Source: Herbinix sp.
GTDB taxonomy: Bacteria; Bacillota; Clostridia; Lachnospirales; Lachnospiraceae
DNA: 64,000 bases
NCBI GenBank assembly: GCA_029240245.1
Contig: JARBTJ010000008.1
Span: 1-64,000 of the forward strand
Reading direction: 5' to 3'
The first letter of the stretch is position 1; each line of letters opens with the position of its first letter. The position numbers and the translations under genes are program-made. A model generated the notes under the pieces. That model made no database searches, was not told the DNA's origin, and was given only the letters and a program-made list of their open reading frames with translations. Positions 48,730 through 61,243 of this stretch are shown here, piece after piece.

Positions 48730-48819
48730 TAAGTGTGAAGTGCTACAAGCCTACCAGCCTATTTTAGGACAAACGAGTAGACTAGGAGGTAGTCGATTAA
48801 TTCTGCTACCGACTTCTCA

Positions 48820-48891
48820 GTCGAAAGCAAGAGGATTTTTACCCCAGGCATATCACAGAACCGTACTTGAAAGTCTCCTTTCATGCGGCTC
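48820..48891 (-). mobile_element. Group II intron remnant (domains V-VI)
   Basis: Read leftward, 48858-48891 is a 34-base hairpin opening GAGCCGCATGAAAG and closing CTTTCAAGTACGGTTC around a GAGA tetraloop. This is the catalytic domain V signature of bacterial group II introns. A domain VI-like stretch then runs to about 48820 (...TTTCGAC). No intact reverse transcriptase gene lies upstream of it on that strand, so only the 3' end remains. Confidence 0.65.
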
Positions 48892-49144
48892 TTATTATTC
48901 AACAATATCTATAATTGCAATGAGCAAATACAGCTGGTTCTCTTATCTTTATCTGAGAGAGCCAGTTTTCATTTAAAAGTCTTCCACCACAAAATCGTTT
49001 ATACTTACATACATATATTCTTACATCAATTAGGCAGTTCATTTTCATTTGGAAATTCATCTATTGCTTGTGCTGGATGTTCACCTATATTTTATACTTT
49101 TATTATCAACGAGTTCCATATCTTAACATTTCCGAAGCCATTGA

Positions 49145-49303
49145 CTTGTATTTATCACCTTATCTTCCTTTTTTCCATATAATTTAGAAAAACTGCTTTG
49201 CTGTGAACATATACTCTTGTTCTTAAATTTTACATCTTTACGAAATAATAAATACTCTGCATAAATCCTATCAATAAGAGAACTGTCTAAAGATCGTGAA
49301 CAG
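49145..49303 (-). pseudogene. Decayed reading frame of unknown origin
   Basis: A leftward frame stays open for about 53 codons (DSSLIDRIYAEYLLFRKDV..., ending SQWLRKC) without start or ribosome-binding site. A shifted frame just beyond contains further protein-like text (IGEHPAQAIDEFPNENELPN, about 49034-49093). This looks like a broken gene, possibly part of the mobile debris here. I do not recognise the family. Confidence 0.25.
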
Positions 49304-49687
49304 GTATTTCTGTTGATAGCTGAGAATCAGTCATATCTCCTGTTGTAATTAGTCATGGTAAGAGAATAAAACAGCGTTTTGGGAAGGAATATCTGTGATG
49401 ATCGTATCCCTCTCCCTTTCAAGAACAATTGTAATCTATATTAAATGCCTGAGTAAGTTCCATATTGTAATCGGCTCTTCACAGCTTGTAGCAATCCTTA
49501 GTATTTGATTATAGATATCTCTATAGTGACGGCAAGTTTCTATACGGAATCGATTTATGTTTATCTTTCTTATCATAAAAAATTTCAACCAGTAGTTCGA
49601 TATTATCGTAATATTTGAGTCGTCTATCTCTTCTGATCAATTCGTATGCACTGTTATGGAGATGTTGTTGTATTTTACTTTAATAAA

Positions 49688-49729
49688 CAGAATCTAGCAA
49701 TTTTCCATAAATATCTAGTATTTTACCAT
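49688..49729 (+). promoter_or_regulatory. Tandem 21-bp activator site (copy B)
   Basis: Two abutting 21-base direct repeats, 49688-49708 and 49709-49729, share TCTAG(C/T)A then TTT(T)CCAT. Read on the opposite strand they match copy A at 29147-29188 (ATGG-AAA-CTAGAT). The second repeat overlaps the -35 box by one base, exactly as in copy A relative to its own promoter. Confidence 0.8.
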
Positions 49730-49757
49730 ATGAAAAATTTGGATAATGCGCTATAAT
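49729..49757 (+). promoter_or_regulatory. Promoter of the peptide cluster
   Basis: Perfect -10 TATAAT (49752-49757), 17-base spacer, very poor -35 TATGAA (49729-49734). The distance from repeat end to -10 is 22 bases, identical to the glycan-operon promoter. Start near 49764, leader about 90 bases. Confidence 0.75.
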
Positions 49758-49852
49758 AATACAAATTTGAGAAATTTATGGGGAATAATTATTTTATATG
49801 TATTATGATTCCATAAATAGTATTTTAGATAAAATTTTATTTGAGGTGAAAA

Positions 49853-50926
49853 ATGAATAATAAGATAGAGTTAGTTTTAAATTCGCCGAATAATTTTTTT
49901 GCATATAAGCCTGCAGATGCTTCTAAAGTTGCAATGCTACTTCCCTGTGCTAATGCATACACAGAATTAGTTCAACGAAATATTCATTTTTATATAAAAA
50001 AAGAATATCTAAATGGGAGACTTAATTTAGAAATAAATTTTTGGGAGAACTATACGAATCTAGAGAGTTACCATATACCTACGTTAATGATACAAATGTT
50101 AAATATTAATCTGGTAGATTTACTTATAAGCCTGATTCAGTTAGAGCATTATATTACTATTCCTGTAGATTCATCAAAAATACATCTATATCCGAATTAT
50201 GGTACTGGTTTTTCAGAGCATCCCATACTTATATCGGGATATGATAAATCTAATAGAACCTTTACAGTATCAGATTATTTTAATTATTCATATGGGAAAT
50301 TTACAACAACTGAGTTGGCTTTTGATGAATTGGAAGCAGGTTTTGAAAGCATTTTAAATTATATTATTACAAAGAGGAGAGACGAAATAGGATGGCTCTC
50401 TATGATTGAAATATTATATGTAAATAATAATATCAAACGGACCATGAATTTAGAAAGACTGAGTATCAGTCTAAAGAATTATATGGAAGGAAAAAATAGT
50501 TGGGGAGAAAAGGGAAATGATGTTAATGTATTTTGTGGCTTTGACATATATGATTTATCGATTGAATACATAAATGATATTATTGAAAATGAATTAGATT
50601 ACATCGATATTAAAATGATTTATGTTTTAGAATTACATTTTAGGTTATTAAAAATGCAAAGTGAATATATAAGCGGATGGCTAACAAATTATAGCACTGA
50701 ATTCAAACAGTTTGAAGATGATTTTCAAAAATGTGAGGAAGAAGCAAAGCAAATTGTAATGTTATCTTTAAAATATAATGCTAACAGAAAAAACAATATA
50801 TTATCGAATATAATTGAACGAATAAAAAAATTGAAAAATGTAGAATTGAATTATACAAATAAATATATTCGTTTCATCGATGATATAGAAAATAATAAAA
50901 AAGAAGGACATGCTTATGATTTTTGA
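49853..50926 (+). CDS. BtrH-like cysteine-fold protein (putative acyltransferase)
   Basis: A 357-residue soluble protein. Its first half resembles the BtrH N-terminal (papain/C39-like) fold: a candidate nucleophile Cys32 in LLPCANAY, then His123 in SEHPILISGYD and Asp141 in FTVSDYF, giving a Cys-His-Asp arrangement. In butirosin synthesis BtrH moves an acyl group from an acyl carrier protein onto an amine. The neighbours encode two adenylating enzymes and a carrier protein, so the same chemistry is a reasonable guess. The second half (about 200-357) is helical and unassigned. A C39-like protease is the main alternative. GAGGTG precedes the ATG; it is the first gene after the promoter. Confidence 0.65.
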   Translation: MNNKIELVLNSPNNFFAYKPADASKVAMLLPCANAYTELVQRNIHFYIKKEYLNGRLNLEINFWENYTNLESYHIPTLMIQMLNINLVDLLISLIQLEHYITIPVDSSKIHLYPNYGTGFSEHPILISGYDKSNRTFTVSDYFNYSYGKFTTTELAFDELEAGFESILNYIITKRRDEIGWLSMIEILYVNNNIKRTMNLERLSISLKNYMEGKNSWGEKGNDVNVFCGFDIYDLSIEYINDIIENELDYIDIKMIYVLELHFRLLKMQSEYISGWLTNYSTEFKQFEDDFQKCEEEAKQIVMLSLKYNANRKNNILSNIIERIKKLKNVELNYTNKYIRFIDDIENNKKEGHAYDF

Positions 50927-52334
50927 TTTCAATAAGTATAGTAACAGATATGCTATCATAGATGAAGATGGTTTAAAGTATACATACGAAATGTTATTTT
51001 CTGAAAATCAGATGCTTGCAAATATAATAGGTCAAAGGTGCTTAGTATTTATACTTTGTACAAATCGCATTGGATCTATCATAGGATATACCACATGCCT
51101 CAATAATAATATTATTCCTCTATTATTATCTAATGATATCGATAAAATGTTCTTACAAGATCTTATAGAAATATATAAACCTAGGTATCTATGGTTACCG
51201 GATGAAGGAACTGAAAGCCTAGAATTATGTAATATAGTTTATAGGAAATATGGTTATAGTTTAGTTGAACTGCAATTTAACGAAAGATATTTGCTTAACA
51301 AGGATTTAGGACTTCTACTGACTACTTCCGGTTCGACCGGAAGTCCGAAACTTGTTAAACAAAGTTATGTTAATATACTTTCTAATGCTACGTCAATTAT
51401 ACAATATTTAGGAATCGCAGAAACAAACAAAGCGATTGCGACTCTACCAATGAATTATACATATGGTTTATCAATAATTAACAGTCATTTGATATCTGGC
51501 GCAACGATTTTATTAACAGAGAAGACGTTATTCCATCTTGAATTTTGGAATTTTTTCAAAAAGGAACAGGCGACCACGTTTGGTGGTGTCCCATACACAT
51601 ATGAAATACTAAAAAGAATAAAATTCTTTAATATGAATTTACCGAGTTTACGTATTATGACGCAAGCAGGCGGGAAGCTGTCTCCAGAGTTACAGGTTGA
51701 ATTTTCAAATTTTTCTGCAGCACATGGAATTAAGTTCTTTATTATGTATGGTCAAACCGAAGCTACAGCCCGGATGTCATATTTACCATGTGCTATGGCT
51801 GTAGAAAAGATAGGAAGTATTGGAAATGCAATACCTGGAGGAAAACTATCCTTAATAGATGATAACGGGAATGAAGTAATGGAACATGATGTAGTTGGAG
51901 AACTCAGATATGAAGGACCTAATGTAACGATGGGTTATGCTCTAGGCAAAGATGACTTAGCCAAGCCGGATGATTGGCAGGGAGTGTTAATGACGGGTGA
52001 TTTGGCAAAGAAAGACCAAGATGGTTTTTTTTATATTGTGGGAAGAAGAAAGAGATTTGTCAAAATTTATGGTCATAGTGTTAACCTTGATGAAATTGAG
52101 ATTATCATTCGATCCAAATTTGATCAGATAGAATGTGCTTGTTCCGGAATAGATAATCAAGTGTATATATTTATAACGGATACGACTTTAATATATGATG
52201 TAAAAGAATATATATCTGATAAATTGAAGATGAATCCAAGTTCTTTTAGCGTTACACCTATAAAACAGATACCTAAAAATAATGCAGGCAAGATACTTTA
52301 TAATGAGTTAAACCATTACTACGAAAATCAATAA
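50916..52334 (+). CDS. AMP-binding acyl/aminoacyl adenylating enzyme
   Basis: A 472-residue member of the ANL superfamily, activating a carboxylic acid as adenylate and probably loading the adjacent carrier protein. Core motifs are all present: TTSGSTGSPKLVK (near 133), MYGQTEATARMS (near 283), MTGDLAKKDQDGFFYIVGRRKR (near 360) and the terminal catalytic lysine in PKNNAGKILY. Substrate unknown. The start is the ATG at 50916, seven bases after AAGGA; it overlaps the previous gene by 11 bases. Confidence 0.88.
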   Translation: MIFDFNKYSNRYAIIDEDGLKYTYEMLFSENQMLANIIGQRCLVFILCTNRIGSIIGYTTCLNNNIIPLLLSNDIDKMFLQDLIEIYKPRYLWLPDEGTESLELCNIVYRKYGYSLVELQFNERYLLNKDLGLLLTTSGSTGSPKLVKQSYVNILSNATSIIQYLGIAETNKAIATLPMNYTYGLSIINSHLISGATILLTEKTLFHLEFWNFFKKEQATTFGGVPYTYEILKRIKFFNMNLPSLRIMTQAGGKLSPELQVEFSNFSAAHGIKFFIMYGQTEATARMSYLPCAMAVEKIGSIGNAIPGGKLSLIDDNGNEVMEHDVVGELRYEGPNVTMGYALGKDDLAKPDDWQGVLMTGDLAKKDQDGFFYIVGRRKRFVKIYGHSVNLDEIEIIIRSKFDQIECACSGIDNQVYIFITDTTLIYDVKEYISDKLKMNPSSFSVTPIKQIPKNNAGKILYNELNHYYENQ

Positions 52335-52392
52335 CTTTCATAAGAGATTAAAATTAGTATTGGTTTATAAGTTTGAAAGGATGATAAAAGAA

Positions 52393-52662
52393 ATGGCGCA
52401 AGAAAAGATTAAAACAGAGATAAAAAAAATAATTATTAAGAATACTCGTAGGAATGTCTTGGAAGAAGACATTATCGATACTACATTGCTCATTGAAGAC
52501 TTGGAATTTGACTCTATTAATATAATTAGTTTAATTGTTGATATCGAAGAATGTTTTAACGTTGAATTCGATGATGCCAATTTACTAATAACAAATATAA
52601 ATCAATTTGATAAACTAGTTAACTATGTAGAAAAGCTTAATAAGGAGAAAACCAATGAATAA
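52393..52662 (+). CDS. Acyl carrier protein
   Basis: A small acidic helical protein (about 89 residues) with the phosphopantetheine attachment site LEFDSINI (Ser41). It should carry the acyl or aminoacyl group activated by a flanking enzyme. Alternative starts are an ATG at 52381 or a TTG at 52360; 52393 gives the usual carrier-protein length, though the AAAGG site is a little far (12 bases). It overlaps the next gene by eight bases. Confidence 0.85.
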   Translation: MAQEKIKTEIKKIIIKNTRRNVLEEDIIDTTLLIEDLEFDSINIISLIVDIEECFNVEFDDANLLITNINQFDKLVNYVEKLNKEKTNE

Positions 52663-53899
52663 GCCTTTGCTGGATATAGTAAATCATGCTTACAAAACGG
52701 TACCCTTCTATAAGGAATTACTTACCGATAAGGGAATAAATATTAATTCTATTATTGAGGAAAATAATTTTACCAAGTTACCTTTGGTGACAAAAGAAAT
52801 GATACAATCGGAAGGTGAAAGAATACTATCCGAAAAATACATACATTATCCTCAATATCCAAATCTATCAGTAAGAAGAACATCTGGTTCAACAGGTAAA
52901 TATCTAAAGATATACTGGAATAATGAGGATAATATACGTTCATTAATGGAGCTGTGGTATCGTAGAAAAAAATATTTTGATATCTCCCCAAATAACAAGT
53001 TTTGTTATTTTTATACAACTGACTATATTCAAAATAAATTGGTCGAGGAGAAAGATATTAGTATATCACCTCTTAATCGAAGTATCGGTTTTAGCAAAAA
53101 TGGATTGAATACCGAAAAAGTACGCGAGATTTACGATAAAATGTATGAATTTGATCCAATATGGTTGATGCTGCAACCATCTATAGCTATATTGCTTGCA
53201 AACTGTATTCAGGATAATGATCTTCCCAGATTTAAAAGTTTGAAATATATCGAATTAACAGGAGAGTTTTTATTAGAAACAGACAGAGCTAGGCTTACAG
53301 ATATATTTCAATGCAGTATATGTAATCAATATGGTTGTATAGAAGCAAATAGTATCGCAAGTGATTTTGGTGATCAGCAACTGCATTGTCATACCTCAAA
53401 TGTGTACATTGAAATAATAAAGGATGGACATGTAGTGCCGGATGGTACAGAAGGAGATCTCTATATAACATCACTAACGAATTATGCAATGCCATTAATA
53501 AGATATAAGATTGGAGATAAAGGGAGATTGCTACACTCAGATAGTAATATCTCTCCTATATTGGAACTAACCATGGGACGTGTGAATGAATTTGTTATCG
53601 ACGAAAACAATGATAAATTACCTCCCTATATATTCCTTCGTCCTATCGAGCATATCAATGAGAAACTTGGAATTGTAATTAATCAATTTCAAGTGATTCA
53701 AACCGGTGTAAACAATTTTACAGTAAAATTAGCTGTCAAAACATCCTATTTAGGTTGGCAAGAGACTTTGAAAAAACAGTTTATATCAAATATCAAACAG
53801 CCTTCTCTAAGGAATGTTCAATGGAATTTTGAGTTCACAAATCATTTGTTTCCTGAAAATGAAACTGGTAAGGTGGCTTATTTTTATAATAGAATTTAA
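52655..53899 (+). CDS. PaaK/CapK-like adenylating enzyme
   Basis: A 414-residue protein of the phenylacetate-CoA ligase (PaaK) branch of adenylate-forming enzymes, distinct from the 50.9-kb enzyme. Motifs are VRRTSGSTGKYLKIYW (near 73), NQYGCIEANSIASDF, and GDLYITSLTNYAMPLIRYKIGD, with a final ETGKVAYFY lysine. PaaK relatives in natural-product clusters load aryl or other acids onto CoA or carriers. Start inside the carrier-protein gene implies coupled translation. Substrate unknown. Confidence 0.82.
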   Translation: MNKPLLDIVNHAYKTVPFYKELLTDKGININSIIEENNFTKLPLVTKEMIQSEGERILSEKYIHYPQYPNLSVRRTSGSTGKYLKIYWNNEDNIRSLMELWYRRKKYFDISPNNKFCYFYTTDYIQNKLVEEKDISISPLNRSIGFSKNGLNTEKVREIYDKMYEFDPIWLMLQPSIAILLANCIQDNDLPRFKSLKYIELTGEFLLETDRARLTDIFQCSICNQYGCIEANSIASDFGDQQLHCHTSNVYIEIIKDGHVVPDGTEGDLYITSLTNYAMPLIRYKIGDKGRLLHSDSNISPILELTMGRVNEFVIDENNDKLPPYIFLRPIEHINEKLGIVINQFQVIQTGVNNFTVKLAVKTSYLGWQETLKKQFISNIKQPSLRNVQWNFEFTNHLFPENETGKVAYFYNRI

Positions 53900-54022
53900 G
53901 GTTATTATATAAAGAGTAAATGCTTCTTATATATAATAGATAGAATTTTAAAAAGATCATGGATAGCAAGACAGTAAACAATAAATATATCTCGAGAAAC
54001 ATGCTATAAGGAGGATAAAAGC

Positions 54023-55471
54023 TTGGAAAATAAATTAAGCAATATAGAAAGAGTACCATTTATTCATTTGTTAAGCTCACCAAATGGAAAATATTTCTTT
54101 GATGTGAATAGGAATGAAATAGTAGCGATAAATGATAAAGTATATCAAGCTTTAAAAAGCATTTTAAATAATGAGTTTGATAAAATTAGCCATGATGTAG
54201 AAGATGAAATTAATCGGATAAAGGTTATGGGGTATTTATCTGATCATAAGGTAAAAGAAATAGAACATCCATACCATAAACACCTTGAAGCAAATTTAGA
54301 ACGAAAATTAAAAAGAGTATGTTTGCAGGTGACCCAAAACTGTAACTTGCGTTGTGCTTATTGTATTTATTCGGATGTAAATAATAGTAAACAAAGATCT
54401 CATACAGCAAAAAACATGTCGTTTGAGACGGCAAAACAGGCAGTTGATTTTCTATTGGAGCATTCAGTAGAAAGTGATTCAGTGAATGTTGGATTTTACG
54501 GAGGAGAACCTTTATTGGCATTTAATTTGATAAAAGATATTGTAATTTATGCGAAAGAGATATTTGAAGGTAAAGATCTCAGCTTTAACATAACTTCGAA
54601 CTGTACACTTCTAAGAGATGATATTATTGAGTTTTTTGTTAAGCATGATATACATTTAATGGTAAGTATTGACGGTCCGGCAGAAATACACGATGAATCC
54701 AGAAGGTTTGTTGCGGACGGTTCGGGATCCTTCGCAGTAATATTAGAAAAACTTAAATCAATTAGTACAAAATATCCGGATTACGTGAGTAAAATGAGTG
54801 TCAGTATGGTAATGAATCCACAAAATGATTATGAGTGTATTAACTCTATATTTGTAAAATATGATATTTTTAAAAATATAAAAAATATTAATGCTGTAAC
54901 AATTGATGATGCATACTCAATAGAAAAAACAACTTTTACAGATGATTTTATAGAGAAACAAAAATATCTAACATTTTTAGCTTTCTTAGGATATTTTGGA
55001 AGACTAGAAGATGTTTACATTTCAAAAATTGCCAATCAAGAAATATTAAGTTTAGTGAATAAAATAAATCGTATGAATAGAAGGTTTGAATTGCCTAAAA
55101 CAACATCTCCAGGTGGGCCATGTTTACCAGGTGGTGCAAGATTATTCGTTGATATTGATGGGAATTTTTATCCCTGCGAAAGAGTTAGTGAAACTTCTGA
55201 TATTATGAGAATAGGTAGCCTTTCAGATGGGTTTGATTATAATAAGGTTACAGCTTTATTAAATGTTGCAAGCACCACCTCGGAGGTATGCCGAAATTGT
55301 TGGGCTTTTTCAAATTGTACTTTGTGCGCAAAGCAATCGGATGATAATGGTACGTTAAGTAAAGAATTACGATTATCGCATTGTAACTCTGTCAGAGAAG
55401 CCGTACATGATGATTTATTAAATATGATTATGCTTCAGGAGTATAGCCAAATATATAGCTACGGAAGTTAA
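54023..55471 (+). CDS. ccpM: Radical SAM/SPASM Cys-rich peptide maturase (CcpM-like)
   Basis: A 482-residue radical S-adenosylmethionine enzyme. The 4Fe-4S site is TQNCNLRCAYC (Cys107, Cys111, Cys114), with GFYGGEPLL downstream. The C-terminal SPASM region (about 365-455) has many cysteines (PCERVSE, VCRNCWAFSNCTLCAKQ) for auxiliary clusters. The N-terminal 90 residues resemble a peptide-recognition domain. It should modify the seven-cysteine precursor encoded 1.5 kb downstream, possibly forming thioether links. The start is a TTG, fixed by AGGAGG eight bases upstream; no ATG fits. Name from recalled families of clostridial Cys-rich peptides. Confidence 0.88.
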   Translation: MENKLSNIERVPFIHLLSSPNGKYFFDVNRNEIVAINDKVYQALKSILNNEFDKISHDVEDEINRIKVMGYLSDHKVKEIEHPYHKHLEANLERKLKRVCLQVTQNCNLRCAYCIYSDVNNSKQRSHTAKNMSFETAKQAVDFLLEHSVESDSVNVGFYGGEPLLAFNLIKDIVIYAKEIFEGKDLSFNITSNCTLLRDDIIEFFVKHDIHLMVSIDGPAEIHDESRRFVADGSGSFAVILEKLKSISTKYPDYVSKMSVSMVMNPQNDYECINSIFVKYDIFKNIKNINAVTIDDAYSIEKTTFTDDFIEKQKYLTFLAFLGYFGRLEDVYISKIANQEILSLVNKINRMNRRFELPKTTSPGGPCLPGGARLFVDIDGNFYPCERVSETSDIMRIGSLSDGFDYNKVTALLNVASTTSEVCRNCWAFSNCTLCAKQSDDNGTLSKELRLSHCNSVREAVHDDLLNMIMLQEYSQIYSYGS

Positions 55472-55492
55472 GACGATTAAGGAGAATAATGA

Positions 55493-56644
55493 ATGAAATT
55501 TACAGATTCTAAGAAAATTGTTGTATACCCTTTTAGCAGAGATTCATTGCCATTAGTAAGGTATTTGAATAAGTTGAATCCGAGTTACAATGTTACGGAA
55601 ATAGTATCACCAAAAGGATGGGGATTCACCGGAAAAGATGCAGGCATGATTCACTTAACACCGGAAATTGGAATATTGATAACGAATGATATTAAACAGG
55701 CATTAGAGAAAAGTGATACTCTTTTTATAGTAGATAGCAAGAAAATCGATAGTGTTTATGAGTCAATAATAAAAAGTATCGAAATTGCATTTGATATGGG
55801 AAAAGATGTAATTTGTGCAGTGAGTCTATTAGAGGACGACCTTGAATCAATTCAAAATAGTTGGAAGGAATTTAATGTTAAATTTATCTATTTCCCAAAT
55901 GCAAAGTATTCAAGTGGAAATAATAAAAGACTATATCATAGTTCATCAAGAGGTCTTTATAATACTAAAGCTCCTATAATATTTATCAGTGAAATGCATG
56001 AGGGGCTGGATGGCCTTGAAGTTTTATATGCGGCCACTTATTACTTTAGAAAAAATGGATATAAAACTACATCTTTAAGCGAAAAAAATTATAGTGAATT
56101 ACTTGATATCTATACGTTACCTGACTTTATTCAAAACTTAAATGTTCCTGATATTGATAAAATCTATCAATTTAATGACTTTATTAAAGATATAGAAGAA
56201 AAAGAAAAGCCTGATATTATTTTTCTACAACTCCCAGGAGGTATAATGAAATATAATGACAAGATTACTAATAATTTTGGTATAATACCTTATCTAATAA
56301 GTCAAGCTGTTCAAGGTGATTATATTATTTTGTGTACACCATATGCATTTTTTAATGATGAGTATTATAAAAAATTAAATGATGTGTTCTCATATAGATA
56401 TGGCGTTGGTTTGGAAAGTTTTCATATGTCTAATACAATAGTTGATGAAAATAGTTTATTAGAAAAAGGAGAATTTTCAGTATTTCATATTAAGCAAGAA
56501 GAAGTTGATCACCAGATTCAAAAAATTGATAATGAAATTCCTGTATTTAATTGCATTAATTCAATAGATTCGGAGAATATGTTTCATCATTTGATAGAAA
56601 CTTTAACTCTGCATGAATTAAATCCTATAGGTGGCATGAACTAA
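55493..56644 (+). CDS. Peptide maturation system protein, TIGR04066-like
   Basis: A 383-residue soluble protein that I match from memory to the TIGR04066 family, found only with this class of clostridial Cys-rich peptides. The N-terminal half (VVYPFSRDSLPLVRYLN, SDTLFIVDS, GKDVICAVSL) and the C-terminal half (APIIFISEM, YYFRKNGYKTTSLSE, KPDIIFLQLPGG) look like two Rossmann/P-loop-like domains without an intact Walker A. Biochemical role unknown. Its C-terminal layout is shared with the second half of the protease at 59.4 kb. AAGGAG precedes the ATG. Confidence 0.78.
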   Translation: MKFTDSKKIVVYPFSRDSLPLVRYLNKLNPSYNVTEIVSPKGWGFTGKDAGMIHLTPEIGILITNDIKQALEKSDTLFIVDSKKIDSVYESIIKSIEIAFDMGKDVICAVSLLEDDLESIQNSWKEFNVKFIYFPNAKYSSGNNKRLYHSSSRGLYNTKAPIIFISEMHEGLDGLEVLYAATYYFRKNGYKTTSLSEKNYSELLDIYTLPDFIQNLNVPDIDKIYQFNDFIKDIEEKEKPDIIFLQLPGGIMKYNDKITNNFGIIPYLISQAVQGDYIILCTPYAFFNDEYYKKLNDVFSYRYGVGLESFHMSNTIVDENSLLEKGEFSVFHIKQEEVDHQIQKIDNEIPVFNCINSIDSENMFHHLIETLTLHELNPIGGMN

Positions 56645-56666
56645 TTTTATATGGAGGGATAGGAAA

Positions 56667-56933
56667 ATGAACAATGTAGATGTAAAAGATATCCATATTA
56701 GAGTAGAACAGATATTGGTTAATAAACTAAATATAAATATAGAGTTATATAAGAGAGACTATGATAAGGAAGCATTAACGGGAAGAGTTTTTAATTTAAC
56801 TCCTAGAGATTTAATATATCTATTCTTAGAATTAGAACAAGAATTTGACTGTCGTATAAATACTATGGATATATTGAACTATGAATTTAATACGATACAA
56901 GGAATAACGGATGTTATTAAAAAACAGAAGTAA
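56667..56933 (+). CDS. ACP-related protein lacking the pantetheine serine
   Basis: An 88-residue helical protein with the size and ending of an acyl carrier protein (LELEQEFDCRI...ITDVIKKQK). At the place of the DSL serine it reads LTPRDLIYL, so phosphopantetheine cannot attach in the usual way. It matches my memory of the TIGR04069 ACP-related family of this maturation system. It may act as a docking or chaperone protein for maturase and precursor. Good GGAGG-type site upstream. Confidence 0.78.
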   Translation: MNNVDVKDIHIRVEQILVNKLNINIELYKRDYDKEALTGRVFNLTPRDLIYLFLELEQEFDCRINTMDILNYEFNTIQGITDVIKKQK

Positions 56934-56998
56934 ACTCATTGAAAAATCTTGATGATTTACAATGATATTAATATAATAAATATTAAAGGAGATAAAAC

Positions 56999-57211
56999 AT
57001 GAAAAAATTAAGTAAAAATATTGCAAATATTAATTCAATAGAAGCTTACGGTTGTAATAATACCAGTTGTTATTTTTGTCCTTGTGGCGCTTGTGTTTGT
57101 TCATGTAATACTCAAATAAATAATCACCTAACTATTTGGGATGAAAGTACAAGAGGAATTAATAATAATAATCGTGCACGTCAAATATGGAATGGAGCGT
57201 ATCTCAAATAA
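56999..57211 (+). CDS. Cys-rich precursor peptide, CLI_3235-like bacteriocin class
   Basis: A 70-residue peptide with AAAGGAG before the ATG. Residues 1-18 look like a leader (KKLSKNIANINSIEAYG). Seven cysteines follow within 18 residues (19, 24, 27, 29, 32, 34, 36). A polar Asn-rich tail without cysteine ends it (about 37-70). The EAYGC junction and alternate-Cys core fit the putative bacteriocins (CLI_3235 family, from memory) that co-occur with CcpM. It should be the substrate of the radical SAM enzyme. Activity of the product is unknown. Confidence 0.88.
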   Translation: MKKLSKNIANINSIEAYGCNNTSCYFCPCGACVCSCNTQINNHLTIWDESTRGINNNNRARQIWNGAYLK

Positions 57212-57619
57212 TTTACTATATTACAAAGCTGACTTTATTCAACTAATTTGATTATTAATAAATAAAATTCATAGTACTAGGTATACATATTTTGAATAAT
57301 AAAATAAAGTTTTATTTTTATTGTTTGTTTAGAATGTAAATATATTAGAATTTTAATGAGTTTACTTAAAAATAATATTTTTAGTACTATCCAACCCTTG
57401 TTTTATTCGAGAAGAACCTGGATTATAGTGCAGAACTTAGAAAATGATTTTTAGTTATCTTATTTTTCAAATAATTTATAGGTTATCCACACGTTATTTT
57501 TTCATAAAAAGTTGTTCAGTATAACTGTTTAAGAAGTGATTAGTGCTGTGGATAACTCTGAGAAAACATTAAATTTGGATGATATACATTTAATCATCAT
57601 ATAAGGGGGTTCAGCCAAA
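57212..57619 (+). other. Gap between precursor and exporter genes
   Basis: 408 very AT-rich bases. A weak aataaaa/ttttatt hairpin (about 57300-57318) could lower read-through and favour the precursor. Two DnaA-box-like sequences lie in it (listed separately). No second precursor was found. Confidence 0.5.
57483..57555. promoter_or_regulatory. Two facing DnaA-box consensus sequences
   Basis: TTATCCACA at 57483-57491 and its inverse TGTGGATAA at 57547-57555 match the DnaA box exactly and face each other across 55 bases, just upstream of the exporter gene. Confidence 0.5.
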
Positions 57620-59431
57620 ATGATTACTATTCTTAATAGGATAATTATAAAGTTAAAAGATGTTTTTAGCATTATTTCATATTGCTTAATGTGGGCTTGG
57701 AAATCATCACCTTTCTATACTATAATAAGATTATCAAATAAGATGATACTCCCTTTTTTATCCATACTTTTAACTTTTATCGGAAAACGCATTGTTGACA
57801 CTTTATCAGGAACCATTTCTGTTGAGAATATTAAAAATGAAATCATATTCTTAATATTAATTTCATGTCTAATTGGGATCTTATTTATTGTTATGCAAAA
57901 GGTTGATGAATATATACAGTTAATTCATAGTGAGCTATTGACGAATGAAATAAGTAAAAAGATGATGGAACAATCACTAAAGGCTGATATGGAGTTTTTT
58001 GATAACGCTGAATACTATGATTCCTTTGAAGCAGCGAAAGGAAATATGTATTCAGTTATTAATGTTATGTGGAATGCAATAAGCTGTATAAGTTATTTAA
58101 TAACCGCTATTGGTACCTTTATTGTATTTAGTAGTTTAAGTATTATTTATGCAGTAATCATAATTTTAAGTACAATTCCATCAAGCGTAGCAAATAAAAA
58201 ATACACAAAAACAATATATGAAATCAGTGTGGATCAAATTAATGATAATAGAAAATTAGGTTATTTAAATTTTATTCTTACAAGTAAATCGTTTGCTGGA
58301 GATATTAGACTATTTCAAACTGGGGATTATATTAAAAAGAAGTATATTGATTTATGGAATTCTTTGTTCTTAACTAGGAAGAAGACATTAAAACAAAAAT
58401 CATTGTCTGTTACTGTTTTAAATATATTTCCTACTTTTGTGAAATGCTTCATCTTATTGAGTATTACATTTCGAATATTACGTGGTGAAGGTACCATAGG
58501 CGATTACATTCTATACGCTGGAATATTAGAACAATTAATTGGCAGTATTAACGGTCTCTTCATATCAATTAATCAAATATATAATGACAAATTAAGAATT
58601 GATAATGTTAAATCATTCGATAAATATAAAAATCATATCGTAAATGATGGAACTGTTATCTTAGAAGAAATAAAAAGTATTGAATTTCATTCTGTTGATT
58701 TTACGTATCCTGGTACAGACCATAATGTTTTAGAAAAAATAAATTTTACAATAAATCAAGGTGAAAAAGTAGCTTTAGTTGGAGTTAATGGGTCAGGTAA
58801 AAGTACCATCATAAAGCTCTTACTTCGTTTTTATGATGTTACTGGCGGAAATATTTTGATTAATGGATTAGATATACGTCAATATGAAATAAACAGCATC
58901 AGAAAAGCTTTTAGTATATGTTTTCAAAATCCATCAATTTATGGATTTAGCTTACGGGAAAATATTATTATAAGTGACCTTGAGTCATTTCATGGAGATG
59001 ACGAAAAGGTGTATCAGTCTCTTTATGATGGTGATGCAAAGAATATTATTGATATGTCACCGAAAGGGTTGGATGTATATTTGGGAAGGAACCTAGATAA
59101 TGAAGGAATTGAATTGTCAGGAGGGCAATATCAAAAGGTATCATTATCGAGAACCTTTTATAGAGATAGTCAGGTATTAATTTTAGATGAACCGTCATCA
59201 TCACTAGATCCGGAAGCCGAAAATGAAATATTTATGAAAATGAAAGAATTAAGTACTAATAAGACTACTTTATTTACATCACATAGACTATCAAATATCA
59301 CGATAGCAGATAAAATAATCGTAATAGAAAATGGTAAAATTATCGAGCAAGGTACTCATAAACAATTAATGGCGAACGCAAACCGCTATTCCGTACTTTA
59401 TAATTATCAAGCGGAAAAATATGTGGTTTAA
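57620..59431 (+). CDS. Peptide ABC exporter (membrane plus ATPase domains)
   Basis: A 603-residue half-transporter with six helices (about 30-330) and a C-terminal ATPase: GVNGSGKST near 390, LSGGQYQKVSLSR, VLILDEPSSSLD and SHRL. It lacks an N-terminal C39 peptidase domain, so leader removal must be done by another protein, plausibly the adjacent subtilisin-like protease. It should work as a homodimer exporting the modified peptide. AAGGGGG precedes the ATG. Confidence 0.9.
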   Translation: MITILNRIIIKLKDVFSIISYCLMWAWKSSPFYTIIRLSNKMILPFLSILLTFIGKRIVDTLSGTISVENIKNEIIFLILISCLIGILFIVMQKVDEYIQLIHSELLTNEISKKMMEQSLKADMEFFDNAEYYDSFEAAKGNMYSVINVMWNAISCISYLITAIGTFIVFSSLSIIYAVIIILSTIPSSVANKKYTKTIYEISVDQINDNRKLGYLNFILTSKSFAGDIRLFQTGDYIKKKYIDLWNSLFLTRKKTLKQKSLSVTVLNIFPTFVKCFILLSITFRILRGEGTIGDYILYAGILEQLIGSINGLFISINQIYNDKLRIDNVKSFDKYKNHIVNDGTVILEEIKSIEFHSVDFTYPGTDHNVLEKINFTINQGEKVALVGVNGSGKSTIIKLLLRFYDVTGGNILINGLDIRQYEINSIRKAFSICFQNPSIYGFSLRENIIISDLESFHGDDEKVYQSLYDGDAKNIIDMSPKGLDVYLGRNLDNEGIELSGGQYQKVSLSRTFYRDSQVLILDEPSSSLDPEAENEIFMKMKELSTNKTTLFTSHRLSNITIADKIIVIENGKIIEQGTHKQLMANANRYSVLYNYQAEKYVV

Positions 59432-59448
59432 TAGGAAGATGACAACAT

Positions 59449-60903
59449 ATGGAAGTGATTATTATTGATGATGGGGTGAATGAAGAATTTGCTCATATCA
59501 ATGCTTTAAAACATAATTTGGAAATAACTAAGTCTCTTAAAATTATAAATCGAAAAGATTATGATAAATCTTTATATAGTCATGGAAGTATATGTGCATG
59601 TATTATTAAAAAATATTCACCAAACTGTAAAATTGGAAGTATAAAAATTCTAAGTTCAGATGAACATAATGGCTCACTTGAGCAATTGCTGGTAGCTTTG
59701 GAATGGTGTATTGATGTGGGGACCAATTTGATAAATATGAGCATTGGTTCAATCAAGTATAAGGATTATGAACCGGTTAGAGTTTTGATTTCCAAACTTG
59801 TGAACAACGGTTGCATCGTTGTTTCAGCATGTAATAATAATAAATGGTTTTCTGTTCCTGCTTGTTTATCTGGGGTTATTGGTGTAGAAACCAAGGAAAC
59901 ATATAGTGATGATCAGTTTACATATAATAATAATTATTACGATTTTTCCGATATTATTGCATCAAGCCAACACTTAATTCATGGCTACAATAAAAAAGTT
60001 ATTCTAACAAAATTATCTAACAGTTATGCGGCACCCTTAATTACCAGTAAGATTTATAACCTGTTAAAAAATAAAGAATATAAAAAGATTTGTAAAATTA
60101 AATTAGAATTATATTCCAAATCGTGTAATGAACAATTTATAGAAGTCTGTTACAGCATGAGACCAGATTTTATCGATAGTGCAATTGTTCTTAATTATAC
60201 AGAAATAAATAATATGGATTTACTTTTTTTTAACACTGAGTTCATATACAGTCATTTAGACGTAAAAAGATTTCAATTAAATGATAAAATGACCAATATA
60301 GTTATATTACCACCAAAAAATAATAATGATTTTAATTTTCTAGATGATATATCTGATGTAATAGATCGGAATAAAGAATGGATAAATGGAATACTATATT
60401 GTGGAATATTACCTTCTCGATTGAAAACACTGTGTATCAAAGATGTAAATTGTTTACTGTGGGATGAAGAAGCATATTTAAGACGATTAAAAAATAAAGA
60501 ACTATCGGAACTACCGTGTGGGATACCTATTATATCAATACAGGGAGATGTTGATCACACAATTAGGGCCATGCTGCTTTTAGAAAAAGAGCTTATCAAA
60601 AATGAATACAACAGTATGATGGTTTCAACTTTAAAGTATTCTTATTTATACGGTATAGAATATATACCCTTACAATTAATGGATTATAAAGTATTTAGAT
60701 ATTTAGAAACCTACTTTAATTTAGATATAATCCTGTTTGTAGACAATTCTATCAAAAGTGAGATATTTGATTTGAAAATTAAAATTATAAATGGAGCAAG
60801 TAATTGCTTTGTTACAGATGGAGATACAATTATAATTAGTAATAATATGATTGAAATCAAAATCAAGGAAATATTTAACTATATTGTAGCATATTTCAGA
60901 TAA
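59449..60903 (+). CDS. Subtilisin-like (S8) protease fused to a TIGR04066-like domain
   Basis: A 484-residue protein without signal peptide. Residues 1-200 are a minimal S8 fold with all catalytic positions: Asp in VIIIDDGV (7/8), His45 in YSHGS, the oxyanion Asn in SACNNN (129-131) and Ser192 in SNSYAAP. Residues about 205-484 have the same order of segments as the TIGR04066-like protein (IPIISIQGDV, LIKNEYNSMMVSTLKYS, FNLDIILFVDN). A cytoplasmic protease beside a peptidase-free exporter is the obvious candidate for leader cleavage. Site AGGAAG is weak. Confidence 0.8.
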   Translation: MEVIIIDDGVNEEFAHINALKHNLEITKSLKIINRKDYDKSLYSHGSICACIIKKYSPNCKIGSIKILSSDEHNGSLEQLLVALEWCIDVGTNLINMSIGSIKYKDYEPVRVLISKLVNNGCIVVSACNNNKWFSVPACLSGVIGVETKETYSDDQFTYNNNYYDFSDIIASSQHLIHGYNKKVILTKLSNSYAAPLITSKIYNLLKNKEYKKICKIKLELYSKSCNEQFIEVCYSMRPDFIDSAIVLNYTEINNMDLLFFNTEFIYSHLDVKRFQLNDKMTNIVILPPKNNNDFNFLDDISDVIDRNKEWINGILYCGILPSRLKTLCIKDVNCLLWDEEAYLRRLKNKELSELPCGIPIISIQGDVDHTIRAMLLLEKELIKNEYNSMMVSTLKYSYLYGIEYIPLQLMDYKVFRYLETYFNLDIILFVDNSIKSEIFDLKIKIINGASNCFVTDGDTIIISNNMIEIKIKEIFNYIVAYFR

Positions 60904-61107
60904 ACAAAGCATTTATTTGTTGTAAAGTTAATAATGCGTGCTCAATACATAAAAAACAGTCCCATAGATGTGGAAAAATCTTCATTCTCTGAACATTATA
61001 GCAAAAAACACTGTTAATCCACAGCTTTATTAAATTCACTTAAAAATGAAAAACTGAAGGAAACGCATTGAGCATCGAATCCTCAGTAATTTTTATGCCA
61101 AATAATA

Positions 61108-61160: not shown

Positions 61161-61166
61161 TTAGGA

Positions 61167-61238
61167 CTGGGGTATAAGGATTTGAACCTTAAAATGCTGG
61201 AGTCAGAGTCCAGTGCCTTACCGTTTGGCGATACCCCA
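61167..61238 (-). tRNA. tRNA-Gln(CTG)
   Basis: 72 bases read leftward. The acceptor TGGGGTA pairs with TACCCCA, the D arm contains GCC..GGT..GGC, and the anticodon stem CTGGA/TCCAG encloses loop CTCTGAC (anticodon CTG). The T arm contains GGTTCAAATCC and the discriminator is G. CCA is not encoded. A strong promoter lies 70 bases upstream. Confidence 0.96.
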
Positions 61239-61243
61239 ATGTG

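Follow-up and report, generated by a model that had tools for sequence, protein, structure and literature searches.

A CcpM-type radical-SAM peptide cluster joined to an acyl-carrier cassette, and the possible acylation of its cysteine-rich peptide

In the 64,000-nucleotide stretch of Herbinix sp. DNA analyzed here (the window), ten plus-strand open reading frames (ORFs) follow one another across positions 49853-60903, confirming the run proposed in a preliminary description of the sequence. Of these, the six on the right make up a CcpM-type radical S-adenosylmethionine (SAM) peptide cluster, a kind that is already known. The left four encode a BtrH-like protein, an ANL adenylating enzyme, an acyl carrier protein (ACP), and a PaaK-like adenylating enzyme, and together they constitute a portable cassette, which in most of its occurrences has no CcpM-type gene with it. 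The reading that we prefer, tentatively and without calling it probable, is that the ten genes, gained together by horizontal transfer, produce a Cys-rich peptide of the CcpM type and attach an acyl group to it, most likely on the side chain of its C-terminal lysine.

The joining of an acyl-transfer module to a CcpM cluster is real: it recurs in loci L260 and L004, and more distantly in L087 and L201. L260 comes from another family and has the order ACP-PaaK-CcpM-T4066-ACPrel-precursor-S8-ABC-ABC, where T4066 is the TIGR04066 protein, ACPrel the ACP-related protein, S8 the protease, and ABC the ATP-binding cassette genes. Its ACP and PaaK genes overlap by 8 bases, as they do in the window, and just upstream, on the opposite strand, lie an ANL gene and a gene for a BtrH-like protein that matches the Cys-less kind weakly (31 bits). 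The L004 locus reads ANL-ACP-SDR-PaaK-ABC (SDR, short-chain dehydrogenase/reductase), with four precursor genes, CcpM, T4066, ACPrel, and S8. L087 has ANL-ACP-PaaK-rSAM and L201 has PaaK-rSAM (rSAM, radical SAM). The CcpM-like gene of these two reaches 360 bits on TIGR04068, which is below the cut-off, and no T4066 is found there by profile; an hhalign comparison of L087 with T4066 gave 10% probability. In both the PaaK tree and the CcpM tree, L087 groups with L201 as its sister, and their genomes belong to different families. A quick CcpM tree (77 rows) accounts for the five paired rows in 3 changes; shuffles needed 4.9 on average and gave so low a number in 4 of 500. L002, the row closest to the window on this tree, has no cassette. 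This scattered pairing suggests that the association arose more than once, or that some lines retained it while others lost it.

A lead taken from the precursor sequences favors acylation of the peptide itself. In a set of 34 peptides chosen by leader pattern, near-identical ones included, all five precursors from PaaK-bearing CcpM clusters end in lysine (one from the window, one from L260, and three from L004), as opposed to 3 of the 29 others (P 2e-4). A fourth L004 precursor, outside the leader pattern, likewise ends in lysine; the four genes of the same kind stand in a row between an ABC gene and CcpM (L004:6447-7287). Counting this peptide gives 6/6 vs 3/29 (P about 5e-5, by hand arithmetic), and adding L121 and L149 too, which are outside the set and end in R and K, respectively, gives 6/6 vs 4/31 (P about 9e-5, also by hand). 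The C-terminal lysine is the sole core lysine in five of the six precursors, and it is the only one in the window's core. The earlier suggestion that the peptide is acylated thus stands in part: the lysines of L260, L004, and the window fit it, but the transferase then proposed, of the BtrH type with a catalytic Cys, is unsupported.

The peptide half of the cluster is readily recognized, and it begins with the CcpM maturase (54023..55471). This radical SAM/SPASM protein carries the motif CNLRCAYC and scores 527 bits on TIGR04068, over the cut-off of 500. In a sample of 391 genomes of the class, 14 carry a maturase above that cut-off; the chemistry of the products of such enzymes is not known to have been studied much. 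The next gene (55493..56644) encodes the TIGR04066 protein, at 285 bits for a cut-off of 200, from a family so far named merely as a peptide maturation system protein. An AlphaFold model from 18 sequences (mean predicted local distance difference test, pLDDT, of 87.1) predicts a fold like those of DUF1611 and DgcN: the best solved Foldseek matches are DUF1611 proteins (2obn, E 1.8e-10, TM 0.60/0.66), with the N-acetyltransferase DgcN lower (7xrj, E 1.6e-8). Since the root-mean-square deviation is about 6 Å or more, single domains probably superimpose better than the full-length protein, and the model gives only a hint that the protein may bind nucleotides or transfer acyl groups. No helpful paper on DUF1611 or DgcN was among those listed by a literature search. 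It is followed by the ACP-related protein (56667..56933), in which, as previously described, Ser is lacking; Pro replaces the Ser of a true ACP. Its TIGR04069 score is below the cut-off (48.5 vs 70 bits), while its size and position are right. The Ser is also absent from the ACP-like protein adjoining T4066 in 50 of the 52 CcpM+T4066 loci having one (none was found beside T4066 at 15 further loci), and we know of no explanation for such a protein in CcpM clusters. The precursor gene (56999..57211) encodes 70 residues, with the seven expected Cys at positions 19, 24, 27, 29, 32, 34, and 36 and a C-terminal Lys. It scores only 15.6 bits on TIGR04065 for a cut-off of 26, too low by itself to assign it to the CLI_3235 type, yet its leader, MKKLxK...IEAY, recurs in the precursors of other CcpM clusters, and from these features its identity as a precursor appears well supported. 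The ABC exporter (57620..59431; permease and ATPase) and the S8 subtilase-type protease (59449..60903) were both recognized by profile or Pfam matches, and the Asp, His, and Ser motifs of the protease, read by eye, are retained. The window's genome also contains a second CcpM cluster, L053 (G000:C32:1-14000), with precursor, CcpM, TIGR04066, ACP-like, ABC, and S8 genes; no cassette was found in the sequence available, which starts at a contig start 0.9 kb before CcpM.

In the left half, the ANL enzyme, the true ACP, and the PaaK-like enzyme are all present, as had been claimed. The ANL gene (50910..52334; PF00501, E 1.1e-37) is of the acyl-CoA/ACP ligase type and overlaps the co-directional BtrH-like gene that precedes it. 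The ACP (52360..52662) scores 26.7 bits on PF00550 for a cut-off of 20.8 and has its Ser attachment site in FDSIN. Its gene is overlapped by that of the PaaK-like enzyme (52655..53899), which was identified by profile match. By eye, the adenylation core motifs of both the ANL and the PaaK-like enzymes look intact. The latter is weakly similar to the BagE/FevW synthetases (52 bits, cut-off 800), which we take to be ester-forming. This similarity, together with the presence of two different adenylating enzymes for a single Ser-bearing ACP, would suit a cassette that acts on the peptide in another way, the PaaK-like enzyme or ANL either activating an acid for its N-terminus or for Ser/Thr, or adenylating the peptide C-terminus for amide formation. 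We consider this unlikely, as the C-terminal Lys pattern points to a side-chain amine, even though that pattern also fits a reaction at the C-terminus.

The first gene of the run (49853..50926) encodes a 357-residue BtrH-like protein, and here the preliminary description is not borne out: neither the Cys-His-Asp triad nor transfer by a BtrH-type Cys enzyme is supported, because the protein better fits a Cys-less sub-family that retains the His. It matches Pfam BtrH_N (PF14399) only over residues 102-141, at 14.6 bits, below the gathering score of 29.7. With profiles built from sequences sorted by eye, it scores 49.7 bits on the Cys-less profile (residues 25-215) vs 23.0 on the Cys-bearing one (81-210). 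The aligned Cys and His are invariant in six Cys-bearing relatives, among them L181 and L206, which both pass PF14399. The Cys-less group has NYIQL-like residues at the place expected for the Cys. Position H123 is His in 33 of the 35 Cys-less members aligned, the window included. No column of this alignment has a Cys in more than 13 members, and the column of the window's C32 has one in 2. However, a 10-sequence alignment put C32 on the catalytic Cys, contrary to the better-fitting profile, so the lack of the Cys is a matter of strong doubt rather than of proof. A single-sequence AlphaFold model had a mean pLDDT of 33.6, too low to judge triad geometry. The ACP partner to be expected for a BtrH is present, at 52360-52662. 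Among the 35 Cys-less members, 16 have an ACP with the Ser motif within 1.5 kb, often directly upstream, and 10 have a CcpM-profile match within 8 kb, in loci partly chosen for such genes. From its proximity to ACPs, the family seems tied to these rather than to peptides. In the window's taxonomic family, 26 of 299 sampled genomes gave a match to the Cys-less profile, a few of these matches being weak and owed to Cys-bearing relatives (G331, G566).

Two other settings of the Cys-less BtrH-like gene were seen along the way. In L238, L240, L242, and L251, a trio recurs that consists of an ACP, the Cys-less BtrH-like gene, and a following gene that reads like a phosphopantetheinyl transferase (PPTase). 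In L240, L242, and L251, the trio adjoins genes reading like rplK/rplA; the PPTase assignment has Pfam support in L240 and L251, and the BtrH-like protein of L242 is without a Pfam hit. A second cluster type (L138, L144, and L149, with L137, L139, and L140 similar) combines another radical SAM gene, a Cys-less BtrH-like gene, ABC genes, and an S8 protease fused to a TIGR04066 domain. Small peptide genes are present in some of these clusters, and a small ACP with Ser was read in L138, L144, and L149.

The proposed pathway builds on what is observed, namely the parts, their order, their shared composition, and their recurrence in other families; every chemical step in it is inferred. The ANL and/or the PaaK-like enzyme would adenylate a carboxylic acid and load it onto the Ser of the ACP. 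CcpM would modify the core with its seven Cys, helped in some way by TIGR04066 and the Ser-less ACP-like protein. The ACP would then hand on the acyl group to the peptide, most likely at the C-terminal Lys side chain; candidates for the transferase are the PaaK-like enzyme itself, TIGR04066, and the BtrH-like protein, which would have to work through its His without a Cys. The S8 protease would remove the leader, and the ABC protein would export the product. A more specific version, in which a Cys-less, His-dependent BtrH-like partner joins ANL, ACP, and PaaK in acylating the C-terminal lysine of the CcpM peptide and so defines a new class, seems doubtful to us. Acylation of the peptide would bring carrier-protein chemistry into CcpM pathways and give the Cys-less BtrH-like family a candidate role. 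The sub-group having a Ser-bearing ACP and two acid-activating enzymes is a direct handle on this question, and the C-terminal Lys offers a one-residue test of acylation.

Several points weigh against the acylated-peptide proposal. The BtrH-like protein, which by its sequence probably lacks the expected Cys, is not a demonstrated BtrH. The Lys pattern is post hoc, having been noticed in the window and L004 peptides and tested afterwards, and it comes from three loci, with four of the six peptides sharing one of them. The likely L087 and L201 peptides, which have no leader and hence are outside the 34-peptide set, do not end in Lys, and the Cys-bearing part of the L201 peptide contains none. 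The PaaK-like gene and CcpM are 123 bases apart, which leaves room for a separate promoter. A PPTase was not found in the window's genome, although this means little since the genome is 77% complete and a bacterium needs one. The pairing is also rare among related clusters. Before L260 was added, 76 CcpM-like ORFs were retained (at least 380 residues and at least 250 bits, one per distinct C-terminus); 67 of them adjoin T4066, and 57 of these have at least 5 kb of upstream sequence. A PaaK-like gene is within 6 kb in only two of the 57, the window and L004, and is thus missing from 55. The absence of the cassette from relatives' clusters is therefore widespread but not general, as some do have the pairing.

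The cassette's own distribution bears on the same question. At an E value of 1e-45, the PaaK profile found 10 of the 299 family genomes, the window's own and one weak match included, and 3 of the 391 class genomes had matches above 380 bits. Fourteen loci scored at least 248 bits on a profile built from these loci. An ACP is near 12 of them, the other two (L199 and L201) starting at contig ends. An ANL gene is near 13, the exception being L201; L203 has it as a partial ORF at a distance of about 8.6 kb. A BtrH-like gene is near 12, not L197 or L199, and the L004 copy is about 11 kb off. A CcpM-like gene adjoins five (the window, L004, L087, L201, and L260). The remaining nine have no CcpM-like gene in the sequence examined, another point against acylation of the peptide, as it suggests that the cassette can work alone. 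The search for radical SAM genes near the cassettes used only the CcpM profile, and L204, one of the nine, has one of another kind. L277 and L278, from other families, again have the cassette without a CcpM-like gene. Viral contigs, scanned with the BtrH-like protein and with the PaaK profile, yielded no relative; on plasmids, tblastn of the BtrH-like protein gave no match, and tblastn of PaaK gave distant ligases only, with at most 29.4% identity among the best 20 of 73 records.

This distribution is what would be expected if the run made two products, the peptide and a separate small acyl amide or ester from the ANL, ACP, PaaK-like, and BtrH-like proteins, which is the main rival and which we regard as possible, if somewhat doubtful. 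It gains from the fatty acid amide (FAA) clusters of gut Clostridia, in which stand-alone adenylation, ACP, and amide-forming proteins are used (PMC13142362). Because the BtrH-like protein occupies the place of the FAA condensation protein, a separate small amide is a strong rival. Two facts speak instead for one acylated peptide: the ACP-PaaK-CcpM order recurs in L260 with the same ACP/PaaK overlap, and the precursors in such clusters end in Lys.

The composition of the region fits a real unit. All ten genes have a guanine-plus-cytosine (GC) content of 25-33%, compared to 39-45% in nine flanking genes. The low-GC stretch runs from about 49 kb to about 61 kb, which gives an island enclosing all ten genes at 49000..61000, with approximate borders. 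Near its left edge is a match to a group II intron RNA on the minus strand (48796..48893; RF00029, 46.4 bits, gathering 40), and at its right edge is a minus-strand tRNA-Gln (CTG) gene (61164..61239). These data fit the horizontal acquisition of the island as a unit, without being proof of it. Such an island could have brought together unrelated neighbors, the left four genes then having no link to the peptide, and the absence of PaaK from 55 of the 57 related clusters would agree with this. We hold it to be decidedly unlikely, given the recurrence beside CcpM-type genes in other families and the low number of changes on the tree. An empty site was sought via a flank protein in the one same-genus genome examined (G636), with no match; the same genome contains no T4066 and none of this PaaK, an absence that also fits acquisition of the island as a unit. 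Promoter and terminator scans returned 94 and 2 sites, compared to 91.0 and 3.7 in shuffles, and being near or below the shuffled counts they were not used for operon borders.

Comparison with known systems places both halves. Among the matches listed in the open-licence PubMed Central (PMC) literature, none reports an ACP, PaaK, or BtrH partner for a radical-SAM peptide, and no described example of a CcpM cluster with an acyl-carrier cassette was found. The nearest relative of the peptide half is the eight-gene SacP23 cluster of Paenibacillus polymyxa, which was expressed in B. subtilis and gave antimicrobial activity (PMC10731318). It shares with the window CcpM (TIGR04068), TIGR04066, TIGR04069, a CLI_3235-type precursor, S8, and an ABC transporter; it differs in having, among its eight listed genes, a sigma factor and a protein of unassigned role, and in having no ANL, Ser-bearing ACP, PaaK-like, or BtrH-like gene (PMC10731318). 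The five-gene TIGR04068/04066/04069/S8/ABC cluster described in silico in Roseburia intestinalis has the same core five genes as the window, but the passage on it does not mention the cassette, and its authors saw no obvious precursor gene (PMC4573289). For the cassette, the closest working analogue would be the gut FAA pathway, OaaA-OaaACP-OaaC, in which a stand-alone adenylation enzyme and an ACP feed an amide-forming protein and a condensation domain makes the amide bond (PMC13142362). It involves no peptide, and neither PaaK nor BtrH is named in the text (0 occurrences each; PMC13142362); no free-standing condensation domain gave a Pfam hit among the ten window proteins. Like the butirosin BtrH (PF14399; PMC10318531, PMC2922099), the window protein has an ACP neighbor and is weakly similar in the His half, but it is under the Pfam cut-off and the aligned Cys is lacking. 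Side-chain acylation of ribosomally synthesized and post-translationally modified peptides (RiPPs) is known from selidamides and nostolysamides, on Lys in the latter, by a Gcn5-related N-acetyltransferase (GNAT). There, GNAT enzymes act on lanthipeptides, with acyl-CoA donors in vitro, whereas the window has a radical SAM enzyme (PMC13060382); no GNAT-type transferase gave a Pfam hit among the ten proteins.

One further locus, L056, was considered as a BtrH cassette locus and rejected. There, a polyketide synthase (KS-KR-ACP; ketosynthase-ketoreductase-ACP) near a CcpM cluster ends in a BtrH_N domain above the Pfam cut-off (L056:14462-19649), and transposase-like ORFs, identified by reading rather than by family search, separate it from the CcpM genes. 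Elsewhere in the window, positions 161-42876 are occupied by a long run of large genes, mostly on the minus strand, which reads like carbohydrate use, with glycosidase-like proteins, sugar ABC permeases and binding proteins, and AraC-type regulators.

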